A stretch of DNA of 64,000 bases from Geothrix sp. 21YS21S-2. GTDB lineage: Bacteria > Acidobacteriota > Holophagae > Holophagales > Holophagaceae. Each line of letters begins with the position of its first letter. Position 1 is the stretch's first letter. The position numbers and the translations under genes were made by a program. Below the pieces are notes generated by a model. It saw only the letters and a program-made list of their open reading frames with translations, made no database searches and was not told the DNA's origin. Where the stretch lies: contig NZ_CP132910.1 in assembly GCF_030846775.1 (NCBI RefSeq), forward strand, positions 2,390,001 through 2,454,000. The letters run 5' to 3'. Shown here piece after piece: positions 14,551-28,502 of the stretch.

Positions 14551-16586
14551 GCTTACGCAGCCTCGCCCTCCTCGCGCTCCTCGCCCCGGCCCTCGCGGCC
14601 CAGGCCATCCGGGGCCTGCCCGACTGGGCCATGCCGCACGCCATCCAGGGAGCCTCGGAAACCCCCGCCGGGGACCCCGACGCCTGGGTGATCCTGGACC
14701 GCACTGAATTCGCCTATCGGGGCGACGGAGAAATCCGCAAGCGCAACTTCCGCCTTGTGCACATCCGCACGGAGCGGGGACTGGACCAGGGCGGCTACTT
14801 CATCCACGGCCTGGGCGGCGCCTCGAGCCGGATCAGGAGGCTCAAGGGCTGGAACCTCCGCCCCGACGGCGAGGTCGTGAGGCTCGACCGGGACTTCATC
14901 GCGACCGTGGGCGGGGGGAGCGCCGCGGACTATTCCACCGGCACCACCACGGTCGCCGTCCTGGACCGGGTCGTCAAGGGCAGCTACGTGGCCTTCGAAT
15001 CCGAGGAGACCATCACCCATCCCCTGGGCCCGCTGGATGGCTCCACCATCCTCGAGGCCCGGCCCATCCGGCGCTGGGAGCTGGCGATGGCCAAGTCGGT
15101 GGGATGGTTCACCGCCACCTCCACGGAGGGCGTCAGCCTGCGGCTGGAGACCCGCCACTTCCCGCCCCTCTTCCCCCAGCCCGACCCCAAGGCCACCTCC
15201 CTGGCCCTAAGCGACCTGCCCGCCCTGCCCCGGAACGAAGCCGCCGCCCCCGGCGCCAGGAACTTCCTGCCCTGGGTGGCCCTGGCCTTTGCCGACGCCT
15301 CCCTGAAGAACGTCCCCGACCTCGCCAGCTGGGACAGCTACGCGAAATGGGTCCACGGCGTCTACGAGGCCCGCACCCTACCGTGCAGGCCCGTTGACCT
15401 CGCCGGCGCCACCGGGCTGGACGCGCTCCGGACCATCCGGCGCTGGATGCAGCGGGAGATGACCTACAAGCAGGTCTACCTGACACCGGACCGGGGCTGG
15501 GTTCCCGAATCCCCCAGGGAGGTCCTCCGCGCGCGGTTCGGCGACTGCAAGGATCTGGCGGGGCTGTTCATGGCGGCCGCCAGGGACGCGGGCCTCGAGG
15601 CGGTCCCCGTGAAGGCCCGCATCGTGGAGGGCTCCATCGAGCCAGGGGAACCCGTGGGCCCCTTCGCCTTCAACCACGTCATCGCCGGCATCCGGCTGGA
15701 AAAGACCTCGGGAATGCCCGCGGAGGTCGTCACGCCCCTGGGCCGGTTCCTGCTGGTCGACCTCACGGAGCAGTTCACGCCCCTGGGCCGCCTGGGAGAG
15801 GCCCACCGGGGCGGGCGCGTGCTCATCTGCACCGCCCAGGGCGCGGCCTGGGCGGAGATCCCCGCGGCGGCCATCGTTCCGTCCAGGGTGGAGGTGCGCC
15901 TGGAAGGCACAGAGACCGACAGCGGCGGCCTCAAGGGCACCCTCTCCGTCACCGAGACGGGCAGCGGCGCGGGACTCCGGCACCTGGCCCTCTCCGGAGG
16001 GTCCAAGGCCGTGCGGGAGCGCTGCGCCACGCTGCTGGACCTTCCCGCGGGGTCCAGGTGGGACCTGGCGCGCCTGGCGGACCCCAAGGACGGCCAGGAG
16101 ACCTTCCAGGCGCAGGTGGCCTTCGAGGTGCCCGAAGCCCTGGAGCCCACGGGTTCGGAATGGCTCCTCCCCCATTTCGGCCTCCCGCCCAGCCCCGCGT
16201 CCATCCAGCGGCTGGGCCAGCCCCGGCGCCTGCCGGTGGCCGTGCAGGACGGGCCCGGATGGGACTGGCACGCCACCCTCCACCTGCGTGCCCCCAAGGC
16301 CCCCGCCACGCCCGAAGCGGACCTGGAGACGCCCTTCCGCACCCTCCACTGGACCGCGAAGCGCGATGGGCTGACCCTGGACCTTCATCTGCGCCAGACC
16401 CGCAGGCAGGTGCTCTATCCCTACGAGCGCCGCGAGGAGGGCGTGCAGGACCAGCGCGACGACTGGAAGCGGTTCCGGACCTTCGTGGACGCGGCCCTCA
16501 CCGTGGTCCCGCCGCCGCCCCCCGCTCCCGAGCCCCCCGCGCCGGAGCCCCCCAAGGCGAAGAAGCGGCCTACTTCCCCCGGATGA
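14547..16586 (+). CDS. secreted DUF3857/transglutaminase-like protein
   Basis: 679 residues with a signal peptide (cleavage after LAAQA, about residue 20). An N-terminal DUF3857 domain (about 45-210) is followed by a transglutaminase-like core with an intact triad: Cys334 in RFGDCKDLAGL, His377 in FNHVIAG and Asp405 in LLVDLTEQ. A beta-rich C-terminal domain ends in a proline/alanine-rich tail. The usual activity in this fold is amide-bond cleavage or cross-linking, with the substrate unknown. The ATG overlaps the stop of its degenerate relative. The last 17 bases overlap the convergent DUF1275 gene. Confidence 0.85.
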   Translation: MSLRSLALLALLAPALAAQAIRGLPDWAMPHAIQGASETPAGDPDAWVILDRTEFAYRGDGEIRKRNFRLVHIRTERGLDQGGYFIHGLGGASSRIRRLKGWNLRPDGEVVRLDRDFIATVGGGSAADYSTGTTTVAVLDRVVKGSYVAFESEETITHPLGPLDGSTILEARPIRRWELAMAKSVGWFTATSTEGVSLRLETRHFPPLFPQPDPKATSLALSDLPALPRNEAAAPGARNFLPWVALAFADASLKNVPDLASWDSYAKWVHGVYEARTLPCRPVDLAGATGLDALRTIRRWMQREMTYKQVYLTPDRGWVPESPREVLRARFGDCKDLAGLFMAAARDAGLEAVPVKARIVEGSIEPGEPVGPFAFNHVIAGIRLEKTSGMPAEVVTPLGRFLLVDLTEQFTPLGRLGEAHRGGRVLICTAQGAAWAEIPAAAIVPSRVEVRLEGTETDSGGLKGTLSVTETGSGAGLRHLALSGGSKAVRERCATLLDLPAGSRWDLARLADPKDGQETFQAQVAFEVPEALEPTGSEWLLPHFGLPPSPASIQRLGQPRRLPVAVQDGPGWDWHATLHLRAPKAPATPEADLETPFRTLHWTAKRDGLTLDLHLRQTRRQVLYPYERREEGVQDQRDDWKRFRTFVDAALTVVPPPPPAPEPPAPEPPKAKKRPTSPG

Positions 16587-17550
16587 AAAGGTCCCGCGCC
16601 AGCGCCCTGGCATCAGTGTAGTCCGGCATCCCGCCCATCATGCGCCAGCGCACCCGCAGCTCGTGCACCACGGGCCGCACCGCCAGGATGAACAGGAAGG
16701 CAGCGAGGAAGACCGTGACCTTGTAGCCCACGTGGCGGAAGCCCACGGCCCCCACGAAACCGCCGCCCGCGAAGGACAGCAGGATCAGGCCATGCAGCTT
16801 GAGGCGGTCGCGGTTGGCCCGGATGGGGTCGCTGCCGCGGCGGTGGAAGACGTTGGGGTACACCAGGCGGCTGAGCTCGATGCCGAAGTCGGTGAGGTTT
16901 CCGGTCATGTGGGTGGTGCGGACCTCGGCGTTGGAGATGCTGGTGACCACGGAGTTGTGCATCCCCATCATGAAGGAGAGGAGGATGATGGTCATGGGCA
17001 GGAAGAACTCCCGCTGGTGGCTGAGAGTGGCGCCCATGAGCCCGAAGAGCAGGAGGAGGCCGGCCTCGATCATCAGGCTCAGGGCGTAGTGGGCCCGGAA
17101 CTTCAGGCGCCGGCCCAGGTTGATCAGGGTGCCCGCGGTGAACGCGCCCAGGGTGAAGCACACCAGGATCTCCAGCGCGGCGTAGGCCAGGCGCATGCGG
17201 CCCCGGGCCAGCTCGTCGGCGAAACGGGAGAAGGTGCCCGACACATGGGAGGTGTAGGTCTTCACGGCCAGGAACCCGCCGGCGTTGACGGCACCGGCGA
17301 TGAAGGCCATGGACCAGGCCAGCTGCCGGTTCAGGATCTTGCTTCGGTCCGAGCCCTGCTTGGTGAGGAGGTTGGCGTCCAGGGGAAGCAGGTCCAGGGT
17401 CGTCCCGATGGCCTTGCCGATGCCGTGGGGCACGGTCTCGAGGTTCAGGTGGCCCTGGAGGGCCCTCACGGTCCGCTTCCGGGCCACGCGCAGGTATCGA
17501 TGGTGCCGCCGCGAATGGACGGGGGGGCGATGCGGGCTCATGGTCTCCAT
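16570..17550 (-). CDS. DUF1275 (YoaK-like) membrane protein
   Basis: 326 residues. An N-terminal basic cytoplasmic stretch of about 85 residues precedes five to six membrane helices. The motif AGAVNAGGFLAV near the first helix, SHVSGTFSRFADEL, HNSVVTSISNAEVRTTHMTGNLTD and the closing helix are hallmarks of the DUF1275/YoaK family. Biochemical role is unknown. The long N-terminal extension is unusual, as family members generally begin close to the first helix. It is transcribed against the DUF3857 gene (17-bp overlap) and diverges from the hyf cluster across 122 bases. Confidence 0.85.
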   Translation of the reverse strand: METMSPHRPPVHSRRHHRYLRVARKRTVRALQGHLNLETVPHGIGKAIGTTLDLLPLDANLLTKQGSDRSKILNRQLAWSMAFIAGAVNAGGFLAVKTYTSHVSGTFSRFADELARGRMRLAYAALEILVCFTLGAFTAGTLINLGRRLKFRAHYALSLMIEAGLLLLFGLMGATLSHQREFFLPMTIILLSFMMGMHNSVVTSISNAEVRTTHMTGNLTDFGIELSRLVYPNVFHRRGSDPIRANRDRLKLHGLILLSFAGGGFVGAVGFRHVGYKVTVFLAAFLFILAVRPVVHELRVRWRMMGGMPDYTDARALARDLFIRGK

Positions 17551-17672: not shown

Positions 17673-19622
17673 ATGGTGCTTCAGAGTCTCTATTTCAGCG
17701 CACTGCTCCTGGCCACCCTTTCCGGGGTGCCCGGCCTGGCGTGGCCCGCCCGCGGGGGGCGCGCGGCGTCCTGGATGCTTGCCGGTTCCGCCCTGTGCGC
17801 CCTCGGACTCGCCGGGAGCGTCCTCTACGGGGGGCTGGCCTGGCAGGCCGAACTGCGGTGGGCCCTTCCCGGGGCCCATTTCCTTTTCAGGGGGGACCCC
17901 ATCGGGACCTTCATCCTGGTGCCGGCGACCCTGGTGCCCGCCATCCTCTCCTTCTACGCCGAGGGCTACTGGAGCGACGGCACCCACGCCGACACCGCCC
18001 CGACCCTGCGGCTCTTCTTCGGGATCTCGGTGGGCTGCATGGTCCTGCTCACCGCCGCCGCCAACGCCGTGCTCTTCCTCTTCGGCTGGGAGATCATGGC
18101 GATCCTGGCCTTCCTGATGGTCACCACCAGCGACCAGGACGCCGCGGTGCGCGATGCCGGGTGGATCTACCTGGTGGCCTCCCACACCGGCGCCCTCATG
18201 CTCTTCGCGGGCTTCGCCCTGCTGGCCCTGGGCACGGGCACCGGCTTCGACCTGGGGCCCGTGCGCGCGGGCTTCGCCTCCACGCCCGCGGGCACCGCGG
18301 CCTTCCTCCTGCTCCTCGGGGGCTTCCTCCTCAAGGCCGGTGTGGGGCCCCTCCACGTGTGGCTCCCCGGGGCCCATGCGGCCGCCCCCAGCCACGTGAG
18401 CGCCCTGCTGTCGGGGCTCATGCTCAAGATGGGGATCCTCGGGATCCTGCGGATCATCGCCTGGACCCCGGACCCGCCGCTCTGGTGGGCGGGACTCCTC
18501 ACGGGCCTGGGCGCTGCCTCGGGGATCATGTCCATGGCCTTCGCCCTGGGCCAGAAGGACCTCAAGCGGCTCCTGGCCTACAGCTCCATCGAGAACGTCA
18601 GCGTCATCGCCCTGGGCCTGGGGCTGGCCCTGGCGGGCAAGACCCTGGGCCTGCCCGCCCTGGTGCTGCTGGGCGGCACCGGCGCCCTCTTCCACCTGCT
18701 CAACCACGCCCTCCTCAAGCCCCTGCTCTTCATGGGCGCCGGGTCGGTGATGCACGCCACGGGCACCCGCGACCTGGAGCGGCTGGGAGGCCTGGCCCGC
18801 GCCATGCCCCGCACGGCCTTCCTCTTCCTGGCGGGTTCCTTCGGCATCTGCGCCCTGCCCCCCCTCAACGGCTTCGCGGGCGAGTGGCTCATCTACCTGG
18901 GGGCCTTCCGCGGCATCCAGCCCCAGGGCTGGGTGTGGTCCGTGGTGACCCTGGCCTCGCTGGCCGTCATCGGGGCCCTGACCGTGGCCTGCTTCACCCG
19001 GGCCTACGGCATCGTCTTCCTGGGCGAGCCCCGGAAGGACCTGGGCGCCCCCGCCCACGAGTCCCCCCGCAGCATGACCGGGACCATGGCCGTGCTGGCC
19101 GGGATCTGCCTGTTCATCGGCCTGTTCCCGGCCGCCCTGGCCCCCGCCCTGCAGGCGGCTGCGCGCGACCTGGGCCCGGGCCTGCCCTCCCTGGGGAGCC
19201 TGGCCAGCCTCGGGTCGCTCTCCCTGGTGGCGGTCATCGGCATCCCCATGGGCCTGGCGGTGTGGCAGGCCATCCGCAGGGGCCCCTCCACCCGGGCCGT
19301 CACCTGGGACTGCGGCTACGCCGCCCCCACGGCCCGCATCCAGTACACGGCCTCCAGCTTCTCCCGCATGCTCACGGACGCCTTCCGGTGGCTGCTCCTG
19401 CCCATCGAGCGCATCCCCCGCATCCAGGGGCTCTTCCCCCGCGAGGCCCGCTTCCAGTCCCAGGCCCCCGACACCCTCCTGGACCGCGGCCTGAACCCCG
19501 CGGCCTCCTTCGTGGCCTCGGTGCTGAGCTGGCTGCGCTTCCTCCAGGCCGGGCACCTGCCCATCTACCTCCTCTACGTGGTGCTCACCCTCGTGGCCCT
19601 CTTCGCGTGGACCCTGAAATGA
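17673..19622 (+). CDS. hyfB: hydrogenase-4 subunit B-like proton-pumping membrane protein
   Basis: 649 residues with about 14-16 membrane helices, an antiporter-like subunit of the NuoL/NuoM/HyfB family. Signatures are FGWEIMAILAFLMV (an essential charged helix), KAGVGPLHVWLPGAHAAAPSHVSALLSGLMLKMGILG, and HxLLKPLLFMGAGSV. The lysine and the HAxAPSxVSAL signature are typical of proton-translocating subunits. It is the first gene of a six-gene complex-I-like operon. Its ATG at 17673 has only a weak GGCGGA site. The stop overlaps the hyfC start (ATGA). It probably moves protons or sodium across the inner membrane. Confidence 0.9.
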   Translation: MVLQSLYFSALLLATLSGVPGLAWPARGGRAASWMLAGSALCALGLAGSVLYGGLAWQAELRWALPGAHFLFRGDPIGTFILVPATLVPAILSFYAEGYWSDGTHADTAPTLRLFFGISVGCMVLLTAAANAVLFLFGWEIMAILAFLMVTTSDQDAAVRDAGWIYLVASHTGALMLFAGFALLALGTGTGFDLGPVRAGFASTPAGTAAFLLLLGGFLLKAGVGPLHVWLPGAHAAAPSHVSALLSGLMLKMGILGILRIIAWTPDPPLWWAGLLTGLGAASGIMSMAFALGQKDLKRLLAYSSIENVSVIALGLGLALAGKTLGLPALVLLGGTGALFHLLNHALLKPLLFMGAGSVMHATGTRDLERLGGLARAMPRTAFLFLAGSFGICALPPLNGFAGEWLIYLGAFRGIQPQGWVWSVVTLASLAVIGALTVACFTRAYGIVFLGEPRKDLGAPAHESPRSMTGTMAVLAGICLFIGLFPAALAPALQAAARDLGPGLPSLGSLASLGSLSLVAVIGIPMGLAVWQAIRRGPSTRAVTWDCGYAAPTARIQYTASSFSRMLTDAFRWLLLPIERIPRIQGLFPREARFQSQAPDTLLDRGLNPAASFVASVLSWLRFLQAGHLPIYLLYVVLTLVALFAWTLK

Positions 19623-20548
19623 TCCGGAACCTGGCACAGCCCGCCCTCGTGCTCCTGGCCCAGATGGCCCTGACGCTGGCCCTGGCCCCGCTGCTCCCGG
19701 GGATCGTGAACAAGGTCAAGGCCCTGTTCGCGGGGCGGCTGGGGCCGCCCGTGCTCCAGCTCTACTACGACCTCGCCAAGCTCATGCGCAAGGGCGCCGT
19801 GTTCAGCCGGACCACCACCGGCGTCTTCCTCGCGGGGCCCGCGGTGTCGGTGGCGGTGCCCTTCACCGCGGCGCTGCTCATCCCCATGGGCTCGGCCACG
19901 GCCCCCGTGTCCTTCGCCGGAGACGCGGTGGTGCTGGCCTACCTCTTCGGCGTGGCGCGCTTTTTCGTGGTGCTGGCGGCCCTGGACACCGGATCGGCCT
20001 TCGAGGGCATGGGCGCCGCGCGCGAAGTGACCTTCGCGGTCCTGGCCGAGCCCGCCCTCTTCATGGGCCTGGCCACCCTGGCCCGCCTCTCGGGCGAGCC
20101 CTCCATGGCCCCCATGCTCACCGCCGCGGGCCAGGGCTGGCGCGCCGCCAGCGGGCCCCTGGCGCTGGTGCTCACGGCCTGGGTCATCGTCTTCCTCGTC
20201 GAGAACTGCCGCATCCCCTTCGACGATCCCAACACGCACCTGGAGCTCACCATGATCCACGAGGTGATGGTGCTGGACCACTCGGGGCCGCCCCTGGCCG
20301 CGGTGCTCTACGGCGCCAGCCTCAAGCTCTGGGTGCTGGGCGCCCTGGTGGTCAAGCTCTGCCTGCCGCTGCGCGGCGCGTGGTGGATCGACTGGCCCGC
20401 GTTCCTCGGTGGCATGGCCCTGCTTGCCTGCGCCGTGGGGGTGCTCGAGTCCATCATGGCCCGCCTGCGCATGCGCCGGGTCTCCCAGGCCCTCATCGCC
20501 GCCGTGGTTTCGGGCACCTTCGGCTTCCTCCTCCTCCTTCTGGCCTGA
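19619..20548 (+). CDS. hyfC: hydrogenase-4 subunit C / NuoH-like membrane subunit
   Basis: 309 residues and about eight membrane helices. It belongs to the NuoH/HyfC/HycD family, which links the peripheral arm to the membrane arm. Recognisable segments are GPPVLQLYYDLAKLMRKGAVFS near 41-62, LDTGSAFEGMGAAREVTFAVLAEPALF near 116-142, and the conserved acidic ENCRIPFDDPNTHLELTMIHEVM near 195-217. The ATG overlaps the hyfB stop by four bases. Product identity is clear. Quinone or other partner cannot be read from sequence. Confidence 0.93.
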   Translation: MIRNLAQPALVLLAQMALTLALAPLLPGIVNKVKALFAGRLGPPVLQLYYDLAKLMRKGAVFSRTTTGVFLAGPAVSVAVPFTAALLIPMGSATAPVSFAGDAVVLAYLFGVARFFVVLAALDTGSAFEGMGAAREVTFAVLAEPALFMGLATLARLSGEPSMAPMLTAAGQGWRAASGPLALVLTAWVIVFLVENCRIPFDDPNTHLELTMIHEVMVLDHSGPPLAAVLYGASLKLWVLGALVVKLCLPLRGAWWIDWPAFLGGMALLACAVGVLESIMARLRMRRVSQALIAAVVSGTFGFLLLLLA

Positions 20549-20551
20549 ACC

Positions 20552-21187
20552 ATGACTCCGAACCTCCTGCTCGCCGCGATCATGCTCATCAACTTCATGC
20601 TGGTGGCCAGCAGCCGCGTCAGCAAGTGCATCCAGCTCGCCGCCATCCAGGGCGGGCTCCTGGCCCTGCTGCTCCTGGTCATGCACGACCACTGGCCCTT
20701 CCACGTGCTCCTCATGGCCTTCAGCACCGTGGCCATCAAGGGCGTGGTGATCCCCGCCATGCTCAACCGCGCCCAGGACCGCATGAAGCCCCAGCGCGAG
20801 CCCGATCCCTACGTGGGCTACACCCTGACCCTGGTGATGGCCGCGGCCGGCACCGGCCTGGCCTTCATCCTGGCCCGGCGCCTGCCCCTCCAGGCGGGCA
20901 ACCTGGGCACGCTCTTCGTGCCGGCCTCCATCATGGCCCTGTTCACGGGCTTCCTGCTCCTGACCACCCGCAAGCGCGCCCTCCTGCAGGTGGTGGGCTA
21001 CCTGGTCCTGGAGAACGGGGTGTACCTCTTCAGCCTCCTGCTGGTCAAGCAGATGCCCCTCCTCGTGGAGACGGGGGTGCTGCTGGACCTGGTGGTGGGG
21101 ATCTTCGTCATGGGCATCGTCATCAACCACATCCAGACCGCCTTCGACTCCCAGGACACCCATCGCCTGGCGCACCTGAAGGACTGA
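20552..21187 (+). CDS. hyfE: hydrogenase-4 subunit E-like membrane protein
   Basis: 211 residues with about six helices, similar to HyfE, a NuoK-related subunit with an N-terminal addition. Visible features are the early MLINFMLVASSRVSKCIQLAAIQG segment (the NuoK-like region), a GYLVLENGVYLF motif near 149-160 with an acidic residue inside the helix, and a C-terminal GIFVMGIVINHIQTAFDS. It begins three bases after hyfC and precedes hyfF by four. Part of the membrane arm. Confidence 0.88.
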   Translation: MTPNLLLAAIMLINFMLVASSRVSKCIQLAAIQGGLLALLLLVMHDHWPFHVLLMAFSTVAIKGVVIPAMLNRAQDRMKPQREPDPYVGYTLTLVMAAAGTGLAFILARRLPLQAGNLGTLFVPASIMALFTGFLLLTTRKRALLQVVGYLVLENGVYLFSLLLVKQMPLLVETGVLLDLVVGIFVMGIVINHIQTAFDSQDTHRLAHLKD

Positions 21188-21191
21188 CCCC

Positions 21192-22625
21192 GTGATCCTC
21201 GCCCTCATCTACATGCCCCTGATCGCCGCGGCCATCGTGTGGTTCATGAAGCCGGGCCTGCACCGGGCCCGGGTCCTGCCTGTGGCGGGCGTGCTCCACC
21301 TGGCCCTGGTGCTGGTGGCCCTCACCCGCTCCTCCCACCTCCAGCCCGACGCCTGGTTCCGCCTGGACGCCCTGGGCGGATGGATGCTCCTGGTGGTCTC
21401 CACGATCTTCACCCTGTGCTCCCTCTACGCCCCGGCCTACCTCGCCCTGCGCATGGAACGCAACTTCGGCGTGTTCGGCGTGGCCATGCTGGGCTTCCTC
21501 GGCATGGCCTCGCTGGTGGCCACCTCGCGCCACCCCGGCGTCCTGTGGGTGGGCATGGAGGCCACGGCCCTGTCCACCACCCCGCTGCTCTACTACAACA
21601 AGAACAAGCGCAGCCTCGAGGCCACCTGGAAGTACCTCCTGATCTGCTCGGTGGGCATGGCCCTGGCGCTCCTGGGAACCTTCTTCGTGGCCTACGCCGC
21701 GCAGCAGGGCGGCCTGGGCGAACCCATCTACATCGACCGGCTCGTGGCCAACGCCGGCGCCATGCCCACCCCCTGGCTCAAGGCCGGGTTCGTGCTCCTG
21801 CTGGTGGGCTACGGCACCAAGATGGGCCTGGCCCCCATGCACACCTGGAAGCCCGACGCCTACGGCGAGACCCCGGGCATCGTGGGCACCATCCTGGCCG
21901 GGGGCGTCACCACCATGGCCTTCCTCTCGCTGCTGCGCTTCTTCTCGATCATGGCCGCCGCGGGCCTGGGGCTCTTCTGCCGGGAGCTGCTGGTGGGCAT
22001 GGGGCTCCTGTCCATGGCCTGGGCCTTCGTGTTCATGATCCGCCAGGGGGACCTGCGCAGGCTCCTGGCCTATTCCAGCGTCGAGCACATGGGCATCCTG
22101 GCCTTCGGGGTGGGCATCGGCGGCAAGGCCACCCTGTTCGCCCTCTTCCACGTGGCGGCCAACGCCCTGGTGAAGAGCGTGCTCTTCCTGGGCTCGGGCA
22201 ACATCGTGCGGAGCTTCTCCAGCAAGAGCCTGGCCGACGTGAGCGGGGCCATGCGGCGCCTGCCGGTGTCGGGCTGGTGCTTCCTGCTGGGCTTCCTGGC
22301 CATCGTGGGTTCGCCCCCCTTCGCGCCCTTCACCAGCATCTTCGGCATCGCGTCCACCGCCCTGGGCGGTGGGCACCTCATGGCGGGCTCGCTCTTCCTG
22401 GCGCTGCTGGCCGCCATCTTCACCGCCATGGGCTCGGTGATCCTGCCCGTGCTTCAGGGCAACCCCAACCCCGCCAGCGTGCGCACCCACTACGAGGACA
22501 CTTTCGGACTCACCGCGCCCCTGGTCCTGGCGCTGGCCCTGGCGCTGATCCTGGGCACCTGGCTTCCGGGCCCCCTCCAGTCCCTGCTGGCCCGGGCGGC
22601 GCTCCTGGTGGAGGGCCAGCCGTGA
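21192..22625 (+). CDS. hyfF: hydrogenase-4 subunit F-like antiporter-type membrane protein
   Basis: 477 residues and about 13-14 helices, the second NuoL/M/N-type pump of the operon. Motifs include VGMEATALSTTPLLYYNKNKRSLEATWKYLL (about 101-131), KMGLAPMHTWKPDAYGETPG, and AYSSVEHMGILAFGVG followed by LFHVAANALVKSVLFLGSGN. The start is GTG at 21192, four bases after hyfE. The stop overlaps the GTG of hyfG (GTGA). With hyfB this gives two pump modules, fewer than in complex I. Confidence 0.92.
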   Translation: MILALIYMPLIAAAIVWFMKPGLHRARVLPVAGVLHLALVLVALTRSSHLQPDAWFRLDALGGWMLLVVSTIFTLCSLYAPAYLALRMERNFGVFGVAMLGFLGMASLVATSRHPGVLWVGMEATALSTTPLLYYNKNKRSLEATWKYLLICSVGMALALLGTFFVAYAAQQGGLGEPIYIDRLVANAGAMPTPWLKAGFVLLLVGYGTKMGLAPMHTWKPDAYGETPGIVGTILAGGVTTMAFLSLLRFFSIMAAAGLGLFCRELLVGMGLLSMAWAFVFMIRQGDLRRLLAYSSVEHMGILAFGVGIGGKATLFALFHVAANALVKSVLFLGSGNIVRSFSSKSLADVSGAMRRLPVSGWCFLLGFLAIVGSPPFAPFTSIFGIASTALGGGHLMAGSLFLALLAAIFTAMGSVILPVLQGNPNPASVRTHYEDTFGLTAPLVLALALALILGTWLPGPLQSLLARAALLVEGQP

Positions 22626-24133
22626 CCAGCGCGCCCATCATCAACGGCACCGCCATCCCCCTTTCCGAGGTGCCCCTCCTTTCCTTCCCGGACTTCCAGG
22701 AATTCATCGTGGAGTCCTGCGGCGACAGCCACCGGCTCGTGGCCCTCTCGGTGGGCCCGGACCTGGCGGGCTGCGCGGTGCTGGCCTCCGGGGCCGGCCC
22801 GGTGCTCCGGGCGGTGCGCACCACCTTCCCGGCCACGGGATTCCCGTCCATCACGCCCCGCTGCCCCGAGGCCCACCTCTTCGAGCGGGAGATCGCCGAA
22901 CAGCGCGGCCTGAAGATCTTCGGCCACCCCTGGTTCAAGCCCGTGCGCTACCAGCGCGCCCTGGGCACCCCGAGGGACGCCTGGGACCGCACCGGACCCA
23001 TCCGGCCCGGCGTGGCCGACTTCTACCGGGTGGAGGGCCGCCAGGTGCACGAGGTGGGCGTCGGCCCCGTCCATGCCGGGGTCATCGAGCCCGGCCACTT
23101 CCGCTTCCAGTGCAACGGCGAGACCGTCTTCAACCTCGAGATCGCCCTGGGCTACCAGCACCGCGGCATCGAGCGCACCCTGGCCGGAGGGCCCCACCGC
23201 TCCACCCTCAAGCACATGGAGACCGCTGCGGGCGACACCACCATCGGCCACCTGTGGGCCCATTGCCTGGCCGTCGAGGGCCTGCTTGACCTGGAGGTGC
23301 CCCTGCGGGCCAACCTCATCCGCGCCGTGGCCCTGGAGCTGGAACGCCTGGCCAACCACACCGGGGACCTGGGCGCCATCGCCGGCGACGTGGGCTTCCT
23401 CCCCACCCTCTCCTACTGCGGGCGGTTGCGGGGCGACTGGCTGAACATGACCGCGGTGCTCTGCGGCAGCCGCCTGGGCCGGGACCTGCTGAGGCCCGGG
23501 GGCGTGCGCTTCGACGTGGACGCGGCCCGCATCGACGACCTGCGTGGGCGCCTGGAGGCCGCCGCGGGCGACACCGCCAACGCGGTGGACCTGCTCTGGC
23601 ACACCCCGTCGGTCCTGGCGAGGCTGGAGGGCACCGGGCGGATCGTCCGCGCCCAGGCCAAGAACATCGGCATGGTAGGGCCCGCGGCGAGGGCCTGCGG
23701 CCTGGACCGGGACGTGCGCCGCGACCACCCCTTCGGCCCCTACCTGGAGGCGGCCATTCCGGCCGTGAACGAGGACATGGGCGACGTGGCGGCCCGCGCC
23801 CGGGTGCGCACCCAGGAGATCCAGGCCAGCGTCGAGTTCCTGCGCTGGGCCCTGGACGTGCTCCGGGCCCTGCCGCCGGGACCGGTCCACGTCGACGCCC
23901 CCCGGGCCCTGCCCCCGAACCACCTGGCTCTGGGCATGACCGAGGGCTGGCGCGGGGAGATCGCCCACCTGGCCCTCACGGACGACGACGGCCGGTTCTC
24001 CCGCTACAAGATCGTGGACCCCTCCTTCCACAACTGGACCGGACTGGCCCTGGCCCTGCGGGGCGAGGAGATCTCCGACTTTCCCCTGTGCAACAAGAGC
24101 TTCAACCTCTCATACTGCGGGTTCGACCTCTGA
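22622..24133 (+). CDS. hyfG: HyfG/NuoCD-like large subunit lacking Ni-binding cysteines
   Basis: 503-residue fusion of a NuoC-like domain (about 10-140) and a NuoD/hydrogenase large-subunit domain (about 145-503, VGPVHAGVIEPGHFRFQ onward). True group-4 hydrogenases place CxxC pairs after the RGIE segment and near the C terminus. Here residues 199-210 read METAAGDTTIGH with no cysteine pair, and the tail is CNKSFNLSYCGFDL without DPCxxC. So a NiFe site is very unlikely. It resembles the Ehr (energy-converting hydrogenase-related) class. Start GTG at 22622 overlaps the hyfF stop. The reaction is unknown; electron transfer to a non-proton acceptor is likely. Confidence 0.9.
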   Translation: MTSAPIINGTAIPLSEVPLLSFPDFQEFIVESCGDSHRLVALSVGPDLAGCAVLASGAGPVLRAVRTTFPATGFPSITPRCPEAHLFEREIAEQRGLKIFGHPWFKPVRYQRALGTPRDAWDRTGPIRPGVADFYRVEGRQVHEVGVGPVHAGVIEPGHFRFQCNGETVFNLEIALGYQHRGIERTLAGGPHRSTLKHMETAAGDTTIGHLWAHCLAVEGLLDLEVPLRANLIRAVALELERLANHTGDLGAIAGDVGFLPTLSYCGRLRGDWLNMTAVLCGSRLGRDLLRPGGVRFDVDAARIDDLRGRLEAAAGDTANAVDLLWHTPSVLARLEGTGRIVRAQAKNIGMVGPAARACGLDRDVRRDHPFGPYLEAAIPAVNEDMGDVAARARVRTQEIQASVEFLRWALDVLRALPPGPVHVDAPRALPPNHLALGMTEGWRGEIAHLALTDDDGRFSRYKIVDPSFHNWTGLALALRGEEISDFPLCNKSFNLSYCGFDL

Positions 24134-24891
24134 TGCTGAAGATCCTGGCTTCCCGACTGCGGCAAGGGCACCGCACCAACCACTACCCGGACGTCGTCCC
24201 GGCCATGCCGGACCGCTTCCGCGGCCTTCCCGAGGTGCCCGAGGGCCCCTGCCCCCCGGACTGCAGGGCCTGCATGGACGCGTGCCCCACCGAGGCCATC
24301 AGCGCCGTGCCCGGCCTGGCCATCGACCTGGGCCGGTGCCTGTTCTGCACCGCCTGCACCGACGCCTGCCCCGACAGGAGCCTGCGGTTCACGGACGAGT
24401 TCCGCCTGGCCACGCGCGCCCGGGAGGACCTGCTGGTGCGCTCCGGCGCCGGCTACCGGGTGGCCGAGGCCCTGGAGGCCAAGGCCCTGGCCCTCTTCGG
24501 CCGCTCCCTCAAGCTCCGCGTGGTGAGCGCGGGCGGCTGCAACGGCTGCGAGGTGGACGTGAACGTCCTGGGCACCATCGGCTGGGACCTGGGCCGCTTC
24601 GGCATCCAGGTCGTCGCCAGCCCCCGCCACGCCGACGCCGTGCTCATCTGCGGCCCCGTCACGCGCAACATGGAACTGGCCCTGGCCAAGACCCTCGAGG
24701 CCACCCCCGACCCCAAGCTCGTCCTCGCCGTGGGCGCCTGCGCCATCAGCGGCGGCCCCTACCTGGAGCAGGAGGAGCAGCTGTGCGGCGCCGTGGGGGC
24801 CGGAATCCACGTGGACCTGTTCATCCCGGGGTGCCCGCCGCATCCGCTTACGATTCTGGATGGGTTGTTGAGGTTGTTGGACCGGGTCTGA
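24133..24891 (+). CDS. fused ferredoxin (HyfH-like) and NuoB/HyfI-like small subunit
   Basis: 252 residues joining two subunits that are normally separate. The N-terminal part holds two 4Fe-4S sites: Cys40/44/47/51 (first spacing CxxxC instead of CxxC) and the canonical Cys69/72/75/79. After a linker the NuoB/HyfI-like domain begins near 125 and keeps the four proximal-cluster cysteines: 136 and 139 in GGCNGCEV, 203 in GACAISGG and 234 in PGCPPHP. It should carry electrons from a soluble donor to the large subunit. I chose the ATG at 24133, which overlaps the hyfG stop (TGATG). An in-frame ATG at 24088 lies inside hyfG and is less likely. Last gene of the operon. Confidence 0.88.
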   Translation: MLKILASRLRQGHRTNHYPDVVPAMPDRFRGLPEVPEGPCPPDCRACMDACPTEAISAVPGLAIDLGRCLFCTACTDACPDRSLRFTDEFRLATRAREDLLVRSGAGYRVAEALEAKALALFGRSLKLRVVSAGGCNGCEVDVNVLGTIGWDLGRFGIQVVASPRHADAVLICGPVTRNMELALAKTLEATPDPKLVLAVGACAISGGPYLEQEEQLCGAVGAGIHVDLFIPGCPPHPLTILDGLLRLLDRV

Positions 24892-25365: not shown

Positions 25366-26499
25366 ATGAAATTTTTATTTAGGTTTTTCATACCCTTCGG
25401 GGCCCTTCTGGCCATCGGTTGTGGCGGCGGGGGCCAAGATGGCCCCCGTCCCGCCCAGGCGCCCACCGCGGGGAGCTTCACGGCCACGGGAGACCTCGCC
25501 ACCCCGCGAGCCCACCACACCGCCACCCTCCTCCCGTCCGGCAAGGTGCTGGTGGCGGGGGGTCTCACCTACGCCGCCGGTCTCGTGCCAACGGCGTCCA
25601 TGGAAACCTACGATCCCGCCGCCGGCGCCTTCGCCCCCGCCGCGGCCATGGGGACGCCCCGCTACGCCCACACCGCCACCCTGCTGCAGGACGGGAGCGT
25701 TCTTCTGGCGGGAGGCATGGGCGGGAGCGCCCTGGCCAGCGCCGAGCGGTACGACCCGGCCTCGGGAACCGTGTCCCCCTGGGGTTCCATGGCCACGCCC
25801 CGGAGCAACCACGCCGCCGCCCTCCTCACCGTCGGGCCCGATGCCGGCAAGGTGCTGATCATCGGGGGCGAGGATGCCGCCGGCGCGCCCCTGGCCTCCA
25901 TGGAGGTGTTCGATCCCGCCGCGGGGACCTTCGCCCCGTGTCCGGCGGCCCTGGCCGGGGGGCGGACACGGCACACGGCCACCGTGCTGGAGGACGGCCG
26001 GGTAATCATTGCGGGCGGCCAGGCTTCCGCCGAGGTGGAAGTCTATGATCCGGCCACGCGGACCTTGGCGGTGGCGGGATCCATGCTCCAGGCGCGATCG
26101 GCCCATACGGCGACCCTTTTGCCGGGCAGCCGGTTGCTCCTTGCCGGGGGGCATGCGGGCGGCGCCCTGGCCGGGAACGAGGTGTGCGACCTGTCCCAGG
26201 CCGCCCCCACCTTCACCGCCGCCCAGGCCATGGGGGTGCCCCGCCGCGACCACACCGCGACCCCCCTTCCCGGTGGCCCGGTCCTGATCACGGGGGGAAG
26301 CCCCGCGGCCGGAGGGTCCACCGTCACGGGGCAGGCGGAGCTGTTCGATCCCGCCCGGATGGCGTTCGTTCCCGCGGCCAAACAGGTGGATGGCGTCAGG
26401 AACGGCACCGCGACGCTGCTTCCCGGCGGAAAGGTCCTGGTCGTGGGGGGCCTGGATTCACTCCTGGAACCCACAAACGCCGCAGCCCTTTATAAATAA
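25366..26499 (+). CDS. kelch-repeat lipoprotein
   Basis: 377-residue secreted lipoprotein. The lipobox is AIGC-GGG (Cys about 19), after a short hydrophobic signal encoded by strikingly AT-rich codons. The rest is about six kelch motifs of roughly 50 residues, each with the pattern HTATLLxxGxVLxAGG followed by AExYDPAxGTFxP, which folds as a beta-propeller. Surface location and binding of a carbohydrate or protein are typical of such proteins, but nothing here identifies the ligand. The ATG at 25366 has an AGAGG site. It precedes aguB by 82 bases. Confidence 0.85.
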   Translation: MKFLFRFFIPFGALLAIGCGGGGQDGPRPAQAPTAGSFTATGDLATPRAHHTATLLPSGKVLVAGGLTYAAGLVPTASMETYDPAAGAFAPAAAMGTPRYAHTATLLQDGSVLLAGGMGGSALASAERYDPASGTVSPWGSMATPRSNHAAALLTVGPDAGKVLIIGGEDAAGAPLASMEVFDPAAGTFAPCPAALAGGRTRHTATVLEDGRVIIAGGQASAEVEVYDPATRTLAVAGSMLQARSAHTATLLPGSRLLLAGGHAGGALAGNEVCDLSQAAPTFTAAQAMGVPRRDHTATPLPGGPVLITGGSPAAGGSTVTGQAELFDPARMAFVPAAKQVDGVRNGTATLLPGGKVLVVGGLDSLLEPTNAAALYK

Positions 26500-26581
26500 C
26501 GATTCGGCTATTGGCACACTCCCGTCAAGGCGTCCGGGAAACCGACCTGCTATCCTGGGTTCCCCTTTTCAGAGGTCCGCC

Positions 26582-27484
26582 TTGTCCCCCAAGCACTTCC
26601 GAGTTGGATTGGTCCAGATGGCCTGCGGGCCCGAGCCGGAGGAGAACCTCCGCCGGGCCGCGGCCTTCGTGGTGGAGGCGGCCTCCCGGGGCGCCCAGGT
26701 GGTGTGCCTGCCCGAGCTCTTCCAGACCCAATACTTCTGCCAGCGGGAGGACATCGCGCTGTTCGACCTGGCCGAGAGCATCCCGGGGCCGGCCACGGAC
26801 CTGCTGGGCGAAGTGGCCCGCACGTGCGGCGTGGTGATCCTCGCCTCGCTCTTCGAACGCAGGGCCGCGGGGCTCTACCACAACACCCTGGCGGTGCTGG
26901 AGACCGACGGCGCCATCAAGGGCCTCTACCGCAAGATGCACATCCCCGACGACCCGCTCTACTACGAGAAGTTCTATTTCACCCCGGGGGATCTCGGCTT
27001 CAAGGCCCACGACACCACCTTCGGCAGGCTGGGGACCCTGGTGTGCTGGGACCAGTGGTATCCCGAGGGGGCCCGGCTCACGGCCATGATGGGGGCGTCC
27101 GTCCTCTTCTACCCCACGGCCATCGGCTGGCACCCCGCGGAAAAGGCGGAATACGGCGAATCGCAGTACGACGCCTGGCGCACCATCCAGCGGGGCCACG
27201 CCATCGCCAACGGCGTGTTCGTGGCCGGCGTGAACCGGGTCGGCTTCGAGACCGGCAACATCCGCGGGGACGAGGCCCCGGGCCAGGGGCTGGAGTTCTG
27301 GGGCGGCTCCTTCCTGGCCGACCCCTTCGGGCGCATCCTCGCCCAGGCCAGCCACGACAAGGAGGAGATCCTCATCGGCGACATCGACCTGGAGCTGCTG
27401 GAGACCACCCGGCGCAACTGGCCCTTCCTGCGGGACCGCCGCATCGACGCCTACGGGGACCTGCCCCGAAGGTATCTGGACTGA
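26582..27484 (+). CDS. aguB: N-carbamoylputrescine amidase
   Basis: Hydrolyses N-carbamoylputrescine to putrescine, CO2 and ammonia. It is a nitrilase-superfamily enzyme with the Glu45 (PELFQ), Lys118 (YRKMHIPDD) and Cys155 (LVCWDQWYPE) triad. The protein is 300 residues from the TTG at 26582 (AGAGG six bases upstream), matching the family length. A longer frame would start inside the kelch gene and has no conserved N-terminus. It lies seven bases before aguA, so the two form the agmatine branch of polyamine synthesis. Arginine decarboxylase is not in the window. Confidence 0.93.
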   Translation: MSPKHFRVGLVQMACGPEPEENLRRAAAFVVEAASRGAQVVCLPELFQTQYFCQREDIALFDLAESIPGPATDLLGEVARTCGVVILASLFERRAAGLYHNTLAVLETDGAIKGLYRKMHIPDDPLYYEKFYFTPGDLGFKAHDTTFGRLGTLVCWDQWYPEGARLTAMMGASVLFYPTAIGWHPAEKAEYGESQYDAWRTIQRGHAIANGVFVAGVNRVGFETGNIRGDEAPGQGLEFWGGSFLADPFGRILAQASHDKEEILIGDIDLELLETTRRNWPFLRDRRIDAYGDLPRRYLD

Positions 27485-27491
27485 GGGACTC

Positions 27492-28502
27492 ATGATCCGA
27501 ATGCCCGCAGAATGGGAGCCCCATGCCGCGACCTGGCTGGCCTGGCCCCACAACCGCATGGACTGGCCCGGCAAGTTCGCCGCCATCCCCTTCGTGTTCG
27601 CCGAGATCATCCGCCACCTGGGAAGGCGCGAGCGGGTGGAGATCCTGGTGCGGGACGCGGCGATGGAGGCCCGGGCCCGGGGCGTCCTGGACCGGGCCGG
27701 GGCCCTCTCGGACAACGTGCGCTTCCACGCCCTGCCCACCGACCGCATCTGGCTGCGGGACTCCGGGTGCTGCTTCGTCAAGGACGGGGAAGCGCTGGGC
27801 GCCGTGAAGTGGCGCTTCAACGCCTGGGCCAAGTACGACAACTTCGAGCTGGACGACAAGGTGGGGACCTTCATGGCCCGCGCCGCGGGCGTGAAGGCCC
27901 GGCGCGCCGCGATGGTCCTGGAGGGCGGCAGCATCGACGTGAACGGCCGGGGCACGCTGCTCACCACCGAGGAGTGCCTGCTCAGCAACGTGCAGGAGCG
28001 CAACCCGGGGCTGGGCCGCGAAGGCTACGAGAAGGCCTTCGCAGAGCACCTGGGCATCCGCAAGGTGATCTGGCTGGGCGACGGCATCAAGGGCGACGAC
28101 ACCCACGGCCACGTGGACGACCTCTCCCGGTTCGTGGGGGAGCGCACCGTCGTCACGGTGGTGGAGCCCCGGAAGGACGACCCCAACCACGCCCCGCTCC
28201 AGGAGAACCTGCGCCGCCTCAGGGCCGCCACGGACCAGGACGGGCGGCCCCTGGAGGTGGTGGAGCTGCCCCTGCCCGGGCCCCTCTCCTACCGCGGCAT
28301 CCGGCTCCCGGCGAGCTACGGGAACTTCTACGTCGCCAACGGCCTCGTGCTGGTGCCGGTCTTCAACGACCCCAACGACCGGGTCGCGCTGGACCTCATC
28401 GCCTCCCTCTTCCCTGACCGGGAGGTGGTGGGCATCTACAGCGGCGACTTCATCTGGGGCTTCGGCGCCATGCACTGCATGACCCAGCAGCAGCCGGCCT
28501 GA
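27492..28502 (+). CDS. aguA: agmatine deiminase
   Basis: Converts agmatine to N-carbamoylputrescine and ammonia, as a member of the peptidyl-arginine-deiminase-like family. The 336-residue protein shows MPAEWEPHAATWLAWPHN at the start, the RDSG and EGGSIDVNG segments with the Asp/Glu ligands (about 91-94 and 141-149), DDTHGHVDD with the catalytic His near 203, and the nucleophile Cys329 in GAMHCMTQQ. The start follows the aguB stop by seven bases. A short GC hairpin right after its stop may end the transcript. Confidence 0.95.
   Translation: MIRMPAEWEPHAATWLAWPHNRMDWPGKFAAIPFVFAEIIRHLGRRERVEILVRDAAMEARARGVLDRAGALSDNVRFHALPTDRIWLRDSGCCFVKDGEALGAVKWRFNAWAKYDNFELDDKVGTFMARAAGVKARRAAMVLEGGSIDVNGRGTLLTTEECLLSNVQERNPGLGREGYEKAFAEHLGIRKVIWLGDGIKGDDTHGHVDDLSRFVGERTVVTVVEPRKDDPNHAPLQENLRRLRAATDQDGRPLEVVELPLPGPLSYRGIRLPASYGNFYVANGLVLVPVFNDPNDRVALDLIASLFPDREVVGIYSGDFIWGFGAMHCMTQQQPA

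Follow-up and report, generated by a model that had tools for sequence, protein, structure and literature searches.

A Geothrix energy-converting hydrogenase-related operon whose sequence lacks the Ni-Fe site and points to a conserved, remodelled pocket in its place

Energy-converting hydrogenase-related (Ehr) complexes have been described in the Geobacter group (PMC7894505, PMC8691401), and are characterized by the lack of Ni-Fe ligands and by an unknown function (PMC10284858, PMC10432482, PMC6349859, PMC7304191). All Ehr subunits of G. sulfurreducens are more abundant on formate, for which a formate-hydrogen link was proposed (PMC7894505), and a complex of formate dehydrogenase (FDH) with Ehr was put forward for Margulis- and Saganbacteria (PMC6349859). 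Geobacter Ehr has also been regarded as decayed or non-functional in a study in which prolonged growth on electrodes left missense changes in ehr genes (PMC13194489). Here, we describe a six-gene cluster at 17673-24891 (+ strand) of a 64,000-nucleotide stretch (the window; positions 2390001-2454000 of the single 5.25 Mb contig) of Geothrix sp. 21YS21S-2, which its sequence places in this known class. In our preferred reading, to which we assign a probability of roughly 0.55, Ehr is a redox-driven ion pump, fed by iron-sulfur (FeS) clusters, with a class-specific pocket and an acceptor that is neither protons nor, generally, menaquinone.

The cluster encodes HyfB, HyfC, HyfE, HyfF, a NuoCD/HyfG-type large subunit and a ferredoxin-NuoB fusion. 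Its coordinates and gene content, given in the original prediction from the letters alone, were borne out by profile matches to all subunit types; as all six genes overlap or abut, they form one operon:

17673..19622, + strand: HyfB/NuoL-type antiporter-like subunit (EhrA type), 649 amino acids (aa); NF005086 (hydrogenase 4 subunit B), E=2e-147; top PDB match HycC (7z0s_C), E=4e-63
19619..20548, + strand: HyfC/HycD/NuoH-type membrane subunit, 309 aa; PF00146, E=3e-29; HycD (7z0s_D), E=1.5e-31; 4-base overlap with the end of hyfB
20552..21187, + strand: HyfE-type (NuoK-like) membrane subunit, 211 aa; NF008556 (hydrogenase 4 membrane subunit), E=1e-21
21192..22625, + strand: HyfF-type antiporter-like subunit, 477 aa; NF005044 (hydrogenase 4 subunit F), E=5e-77
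22622..24133, + strand: large subunit (NuoC+NuoD/HyfG type, EhrL) without Ni-Fe cysteines, 503 aa; HycE (7z0s_E), E=7e-52; GTG start, 4-base overlap with hyfF
24133..24891, + strand: fused small subunit EhrS, about 252 aa, with a 2x[4Fe-4S] ferredoxin domain (HyfH/NuoI-like) and a NuoB/HyfI domain; joined to the large-subunit gene by a TGATG overlap

Family matches as strong as E=1e-55 (large subunit) and E=2e-147 (HyfB) leave no concern about chance. Genes for an NADH module (NuoEFG) are not found between 17540 and 25400. Assignment to Ehr, likewise part of the original prediction, is supported by the gene order, by the missing cysteines and by 56-58% large-subunit identity to Geobacter/Trichlorobacter homologues. 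In a tree, the large subunit and Geobacteraceae Ehr together make up one supported group, separate from HycE/HyfG of E. coli and from NuoD; the tree was built by a quick method and has long branches, and known Ehr is represented in it by Geobacteraceae relatives rather than by labelled reference sequences. As in other Ehr complexes, an FeS small subunit is combined with NuoH-like and antiporter-like membrane subunits, while the large subunit has neither the four cysteines in two CxxC motifs of a group 4 [NiFe]-hydrogenase nor the one CxxC kept in the MBS sulfane reductase.

The loss of the Ni-Fe site is evident at two places in the large subunit:

23216..23251, + strand: codons 199-210 (METAAGDTTIGH), at the site of the first CxxC
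24092..24130, + strand: codons 491-503 (NKSFNLSYCGFDL), at the site of DPCxxC and forming the protein end

Both sequences read as originally claimed. We aligned the protein with E. coli HycE (7z0s_E), with the HycE and HyfG genes of NC_000913 and with the genome's own group-4 hydrogenase, in which the Ni-Fe ligands lie in C-G-I-C and C-Y-S-C. In ungapped alignment, RVCGIC corresponds to T-A-A203-G-D-T206 and DPCYSC to N-L-S497-Y-C499-G500, so that all four Ni-Fe cysteines are substituted. A CxxC elsewhere in the protein, which would have spoken against the prediction, was looked for and not found, and 0 of 96 homologues carry a CxxC pair within the domain, the lone match being read-through 5' sequence of one metagenome-assembled genome (MAG). 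HycE has its C-terminal tail cut off by the protease HycI; the window protein ends at the same point as mature HycE and lacks the 32 residues found after DPCYSCTDR in the E. coli protein. Nevertheless, the large subunit matches HycE (E=7e-52) and Nqo4 (E=2e-35), and an AlphaFold2 monomer model with a predicted local distance difference test score (pLDDT) of 85 has its best fold match in 7z0s_E (Z 36.6, root-mean-square deviation 3.1 over 463 residues), showing that, as modelled, the hydrogenase/NuoD-type fold is retained. Without a Ni-Fe site, Ehr itself is unlikely to produce hydrogen, contrary to the formate-hydrogen link proposed earlier (PMC7894505).

Absent Ni-Fe ligands, together with the ehr missense changes after long electrode growth, could also be taken to mean that Ehr is a decayed, non-functional hydrogenase, the view held for the Geobacter complex (PMC13194489). 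Sequence comparison, however, indicates purifying selection on all six genes: against congener G067, the ratio of nonsynonymous to synonymous substitution rates (dN/dS) is 0.16 for B, 0.10 for C, 0.12 for E, 0.14 for F, 0.19 for G and 0.35 for I. The small subunit has 12 cysteines that would hold two ferredoxin-type clusters and a proximal cluster of the hydrogenase type; these residues, C41, 45, 48, 52, 70, 73, 76, 80, 137, 140, 204 and 235 (P0002 numbering), are conserved in 69-73 of the 73 homologues compared. Among the membrane subunits, E140, K221, K252 and K349 of HyfB, E154 and E173 of HyfE and charged residues of HyfC including E144, E195, D202 and E209 are conserved, and E123, K210 and K328 of HyfF are invariant; these charged residues hold across 69-76 homologues, are mostly common to E. 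coli Hyf, and support the expectation that ion transport has probably been kept. With dN/dS values of 0.10-0.35, and pocket and channel residues invariant over more than 12 phyla, we rejected a decayed pseudogene or hydrogenase and give this explanation next to no credence, in contradiction to a simply non-functional Ehr (PMC13194489).

What has taken the place of the Ni-Fe site is itself conserved. In the homologue alignment, H151, E156, H159, G204-D205, H210, N491-K492-S493 and S497 are invariant or close to it, and C499 is nearly invariant; we infer that these residues line one pocket. On the membrane side, E129, D203, H207 and H214 of HyfC are invariant in Ehr, yet different in HyfC/HycD and NuoH. 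H207 and H214 are located in the loop between transmembrane helices 5 and 6, the loop that borders the quinone cavity of complex I, and the pocket would therefore be Ehr-specific on both sides. The tail pattern CNKSFNLS was one of the two seeds of our homologue search, whereas D205, H151, E156, H159 and H210 lie outside the seeds. At L109:1724-3313, immediately before a standard Ehr operon, there is a divergent second Ehr-like large subunit (36-38% identical, tail NKSFNQSYSGNDL), which constitutes a further Ehr subclass without C499.

A scan of genome contigs yielded at least 553 confirmed relatives, the best 80 of which we analysed. Their hosts belong to Thermodesulfobacteriota, Acidobacteriota, Myxococcota, Planctomycetota, Verrucomicrobiota, Spirochaetota, Kiritimatiellota, Elusimicrobiota, Riflebacteria, Latescibacterota, Zixibacteria and others, and nearly every long-enough locus, in more than 12 phyla, shows the core order B-C-E-F-G-I with a fused small subunit, commonly with a second HyfB ahead of it. 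As judged from these sequences, conservation of the six-gene core and of its invariant remodelled pocket over so many phyla is a new finding, and Ehr is thus not a decayed hydrogenase. Two exceptions are a MAG with a large subunit that is not followed by a small one (L070), and a Methylococcaceae MAG (L081:8959-11518) with large and small subunits and no membrane subunits within 9 kb upstream, a contig that may be mis-binned or rearranged. The relatives of the window's genome are Holophagaceae, namely Geothrix and its neighbours, and in the 77 searched genomes of the order, P0001 matches at E<=1e-20 occur in 76, a count that includes complex I subunits, and strong Ehr matches (E below about 1e-90) in slightly more than half.

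Among the best 80 loci, no partner dehydrogenase recurs beside the operon, and no formate dehydrogenase recurs within 9 kb. This bears on the possibility that Ehr is a formate-linked module, with a cytoplasmic formate (or aldehyde) dehydrogenase on the ferredoxin domain, in which oxidation, or CO2 reduction, is coupled to an ion gradient. The abundance of Ehr subunits on formate (PMC7894505), the proposed FDH-Ehr complex (PMC6349859) and top matches to subunits of formate hydrogenlyase all point that way; but the lack of a recurring formate dehydrogenase does not, and the proposal names a donor and no acceptor. We consider it improbable. Separately, a gene for a glyceraldehyde-3-phosphate dehydrogenase of about 490 aa follows the Ehr operon in 10 loci, only in Deltaproteobacteria/Geobacterales (e.g. 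L103:11292-12791).

The other known chemistry of this fold is quinone reduction. The equivalents of T. thermophilus Nqo4 His38 and Tyr87 are Ile155 and Gly204 in the window protein, as in 96 of 96 homologues; with both the Ni-Fe ligands and the Q-site residues absent, neither known chemistry of the fold is kept in its known form. MqnA/MqnD-family genes are present in 13 of 30 Ehr-bearing genomes, including the window's own, and only one of the other 17 has MenD above the cut-off. A recognisable menaquinone route (MqnA/MqnD, or MenD above the cut-off) was thus not found in 16 of the 30, two of which (the L092 and L123 hosts) also lack a UbiA-family prenyltransferase. The RpsB control was present in 17 of 18 genomes scanned, so gross genome incompleteness is not the cause. 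Similarly, Ehr-bearing Riflemargulisbacteria have been reported to possess no full ubiquinone or menaquinone pathway (PMC6349859). The pocket residues are identical in hosts with and without menaquinone genes, and a common non-quinone acceptor is therefore the simplest reading. On these sequence grounds, a quinone seems unlikely as the general Ehr acceptor, and the comparison suggests that the replacement site is used for neither hydrogen nor, in most lineages, quinone.

Nonetheless, Ehr could be an oxidoreductase between ferredoxin (or formate-derived electrons) and menaquinone, with a pocket that binds quinone by residues other than those of complex I, much like a truncated, ferredoxin-fed complex I. 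NuoD and the window large subunit do share a fold, menaquinone serves Geobacter, Geothrix and other hosts in respiration, and the window's genome, having MqnA and MqnD, probably makes it. Set against this are the Ile155/Gly204 replacements in all 96 homologues and the same pocket in hosts that have no recognisable menaquinone genes and, in two cases, no UbiA either; we regard this oxidoreductase as rather unlikely.

The layout of many Ehr loci points to a regulator. Of the 63 loci, from many phyla, in which the sequence reaches far enough ahead of the operon, 46 have a gene for a protein of about 230 aa immediately before, and in the same orientation as, a HyfB gene of the complex (examples among L063-L141 are L068:3137-3832, L098:980-1792 and L113:1126-1827). 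All five of these proteins that were scanned have an N-terminal helix-turn-helix (HTH) domain, HTH_17, and a C-terminal PTS_EIIA_2 domain, and 48 of 51 EIIA copies retain the His (IPH) that can be phosphorylated. Some Geobacteraceae have the EIIA gene and one HyfB gene side by side on the opposite strand; the two thus travel as a pair. We therefore think it likely that the Ehr operon is controlled by the phosphotransferase system (PTS), a connection of which we found no mention in the open-access literature, the original Ehr papers lying outside that search. The HTH-EIIA gene is absent from the Holophagaceae loci read, and the window's genome has no EIIA match beyond a weak and partial one at a distant site. 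The position that it holds in most phyla is occupied here by a gene outside the complex, and unrelated genes follow downstream of the operon from 25366 on, among them an adjacent pair that by sequence impression only resembles N-carbamoylputrescine amidase and agmatine deiminase (26390-28502, + strand):

16570..17550, - strand: divergent membrane protein that resembles the YoaK/DUF1275 family, by sequence impression only

About 100 kb from the window operon, at 2311.8-2318.2 kb (L012 6788-13173; G000:C1), the same genome has a second HyfB-C-E-F-G set, 50-64% identical and with the same large-subunit tail, which is followed by a short-chain dehydrogenase gene in place of the FeS subunit. In the large-subunit tree, it belongs to the main Holophagaceae lineage, as sister to a congener that keeps two HyfB and the small subunit; the second cluster has thus lost both, whereas the window operon belongs to a separate lineage. 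The genome's five NuoB-type genes lie in two complex I operons, in one group-4 hydrogenase, in a 387-aa frame elsewhere and in the window, and the second cluster may borrow the window's small subunit. The group-4 locus (L011:5824-18522 in G000:C1, about 1031-1044 kb) encodes a true [NiFe]-hydrogenase with the DPCYSCTDR tail, beside HypA, a 976-aa double antiporter-like protein, a DUF6976 protein, a sigma-54 activator and an aldehyde:ferredoxin oxidoreductase gene, and is possibly an aldehyde-oxidising hydrogenase system.

Both the EIIA gene and the second cluster, which retains its membrane-subunit residues without an FeS subunit, would fit an Ehr that is no net redox enzyme, but a gated ion antiporter with a regulatory FeS arm, through which the nitrogen phosphotransferase system would regulate pH or ion homeostasis. 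K+ transport in E. coli is under EIIA(Ntr) control. Nearly all complete loci, however, contain the FeS subunit and its 12 cysteines, and conservation of the pocket equals that of the channels, leaving the antiporter distinctly improbable.

Under our preferred reading of a redox-driven pump, low-potential electrons from ferredoxin, or from a soluble dehydrogenase docked at the ferredoxin domain, would enter the fused ferredoxin-NuoB protein and move along two [4Fe-4S] clusters until they arrive at the proximal [4Fe-4S] cluster, which is of the hydrogenase type. Their next stop would be the class-specific pocket of the large subunit, which would face HyfC and contain neither a Ni-Fe site nor the quinone residues of complex I, and where substrate reduction would drive ions through HyfC, HyfE, HyfF and HyfB. 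The sequences speak for the gene set, for intact cluster ligands and channel residues, for the absence of Ni-Fe ligands and Q-site residues and for purifying selection; electron direction, donor, acceptor identity, coupling and the ion (H+ or Na+) we infer. More tentatively, Ehr could be a widespread, PTS-regulated ion pump whose large subunit has gained a new redox site (invariant or nearly invariant His, Asp, Lys, Ser and Cys facing HyfC) for an acceptor that is neither H+ nor quinone.

Several points weigh against the preferred reading. The statement in the original prediction that the electron acceptor is not established still holds. The pLDDT falls below 50 at residues 141-166 and 484-503, leaving the pocket loops unresolved in the monomer model, and the conservation of the tail is partly built in, as CNKSFNLS seeded the search. 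Genome completeness was judged by RpsB as a single marker, and some of the 16 genomes without menaquinone genes may use unrecognised pathways or scavenge. Finally, the window's genome has MqnA/MqnD, making menaquinone possible in this very organism.

Ehr is found in hundreds of genomes of many phyla, where it is usually labelled 'function unknown' or even 'non-functional'. Also new are the 16 of 30 Ehr hosts without a recognisable menaquinone pathway, the EIIA-headed operons and the second cluster without an FeS subunit. The shared constraint, the quinone-less hosts and the EIIA regulator narrow down what Ehr reduces, and turn residues and regulator into targets for mutation. If the more tentative reading is true, Ehr would add to hydrogenase and quinone reductase a third kind of catalysis on the complex I scaffold; its acceptor bears on how chemistries were exchanged between complex I and energy-converting hydrogenases.

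Of the known systems, G. sulfurreducens Ehr (GSU0739-GSU0745: ehrA-1, A-2, B, C, D, L, S) has the same subunit types and likewise no Ni-Fe cysteines, the 56-58% large-subunit identity to this type having been measured on Geobacteraceae relatives and not on the sulfurreducens sequence; it has two HyfB, whereas the window has one and no adjacent HTH-EIIA gene. E. coli formate hydrogenlyase and hydrogenase-4 (Hyc, Hyf; group 4a) provide the best sequence or fold match for the large, HyfB and HyfC subunits and have the same HyfB, C, E, F, G order, but the window complex lacks their Ni-Fe cysteines, cleaved C-terminal tail, HyfD and HyfA, and has HyfH and HyfI fused. With complex I (its NuoBCDHIKLMN part), it shares a homologous core, the fold and ion-channel residues, yet it has no NADH module and no Q-site His/Tyr, and its NuoB domain carries CxxC instead of tandem CC. 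Pyrococcus furiosus MBS/Mbx, finally, is also a group-4-derived, FeS-fed ion pump that is not a hydrogenase; the MBS large subunit retains one CxxC, while both are gone in the window large subunit.

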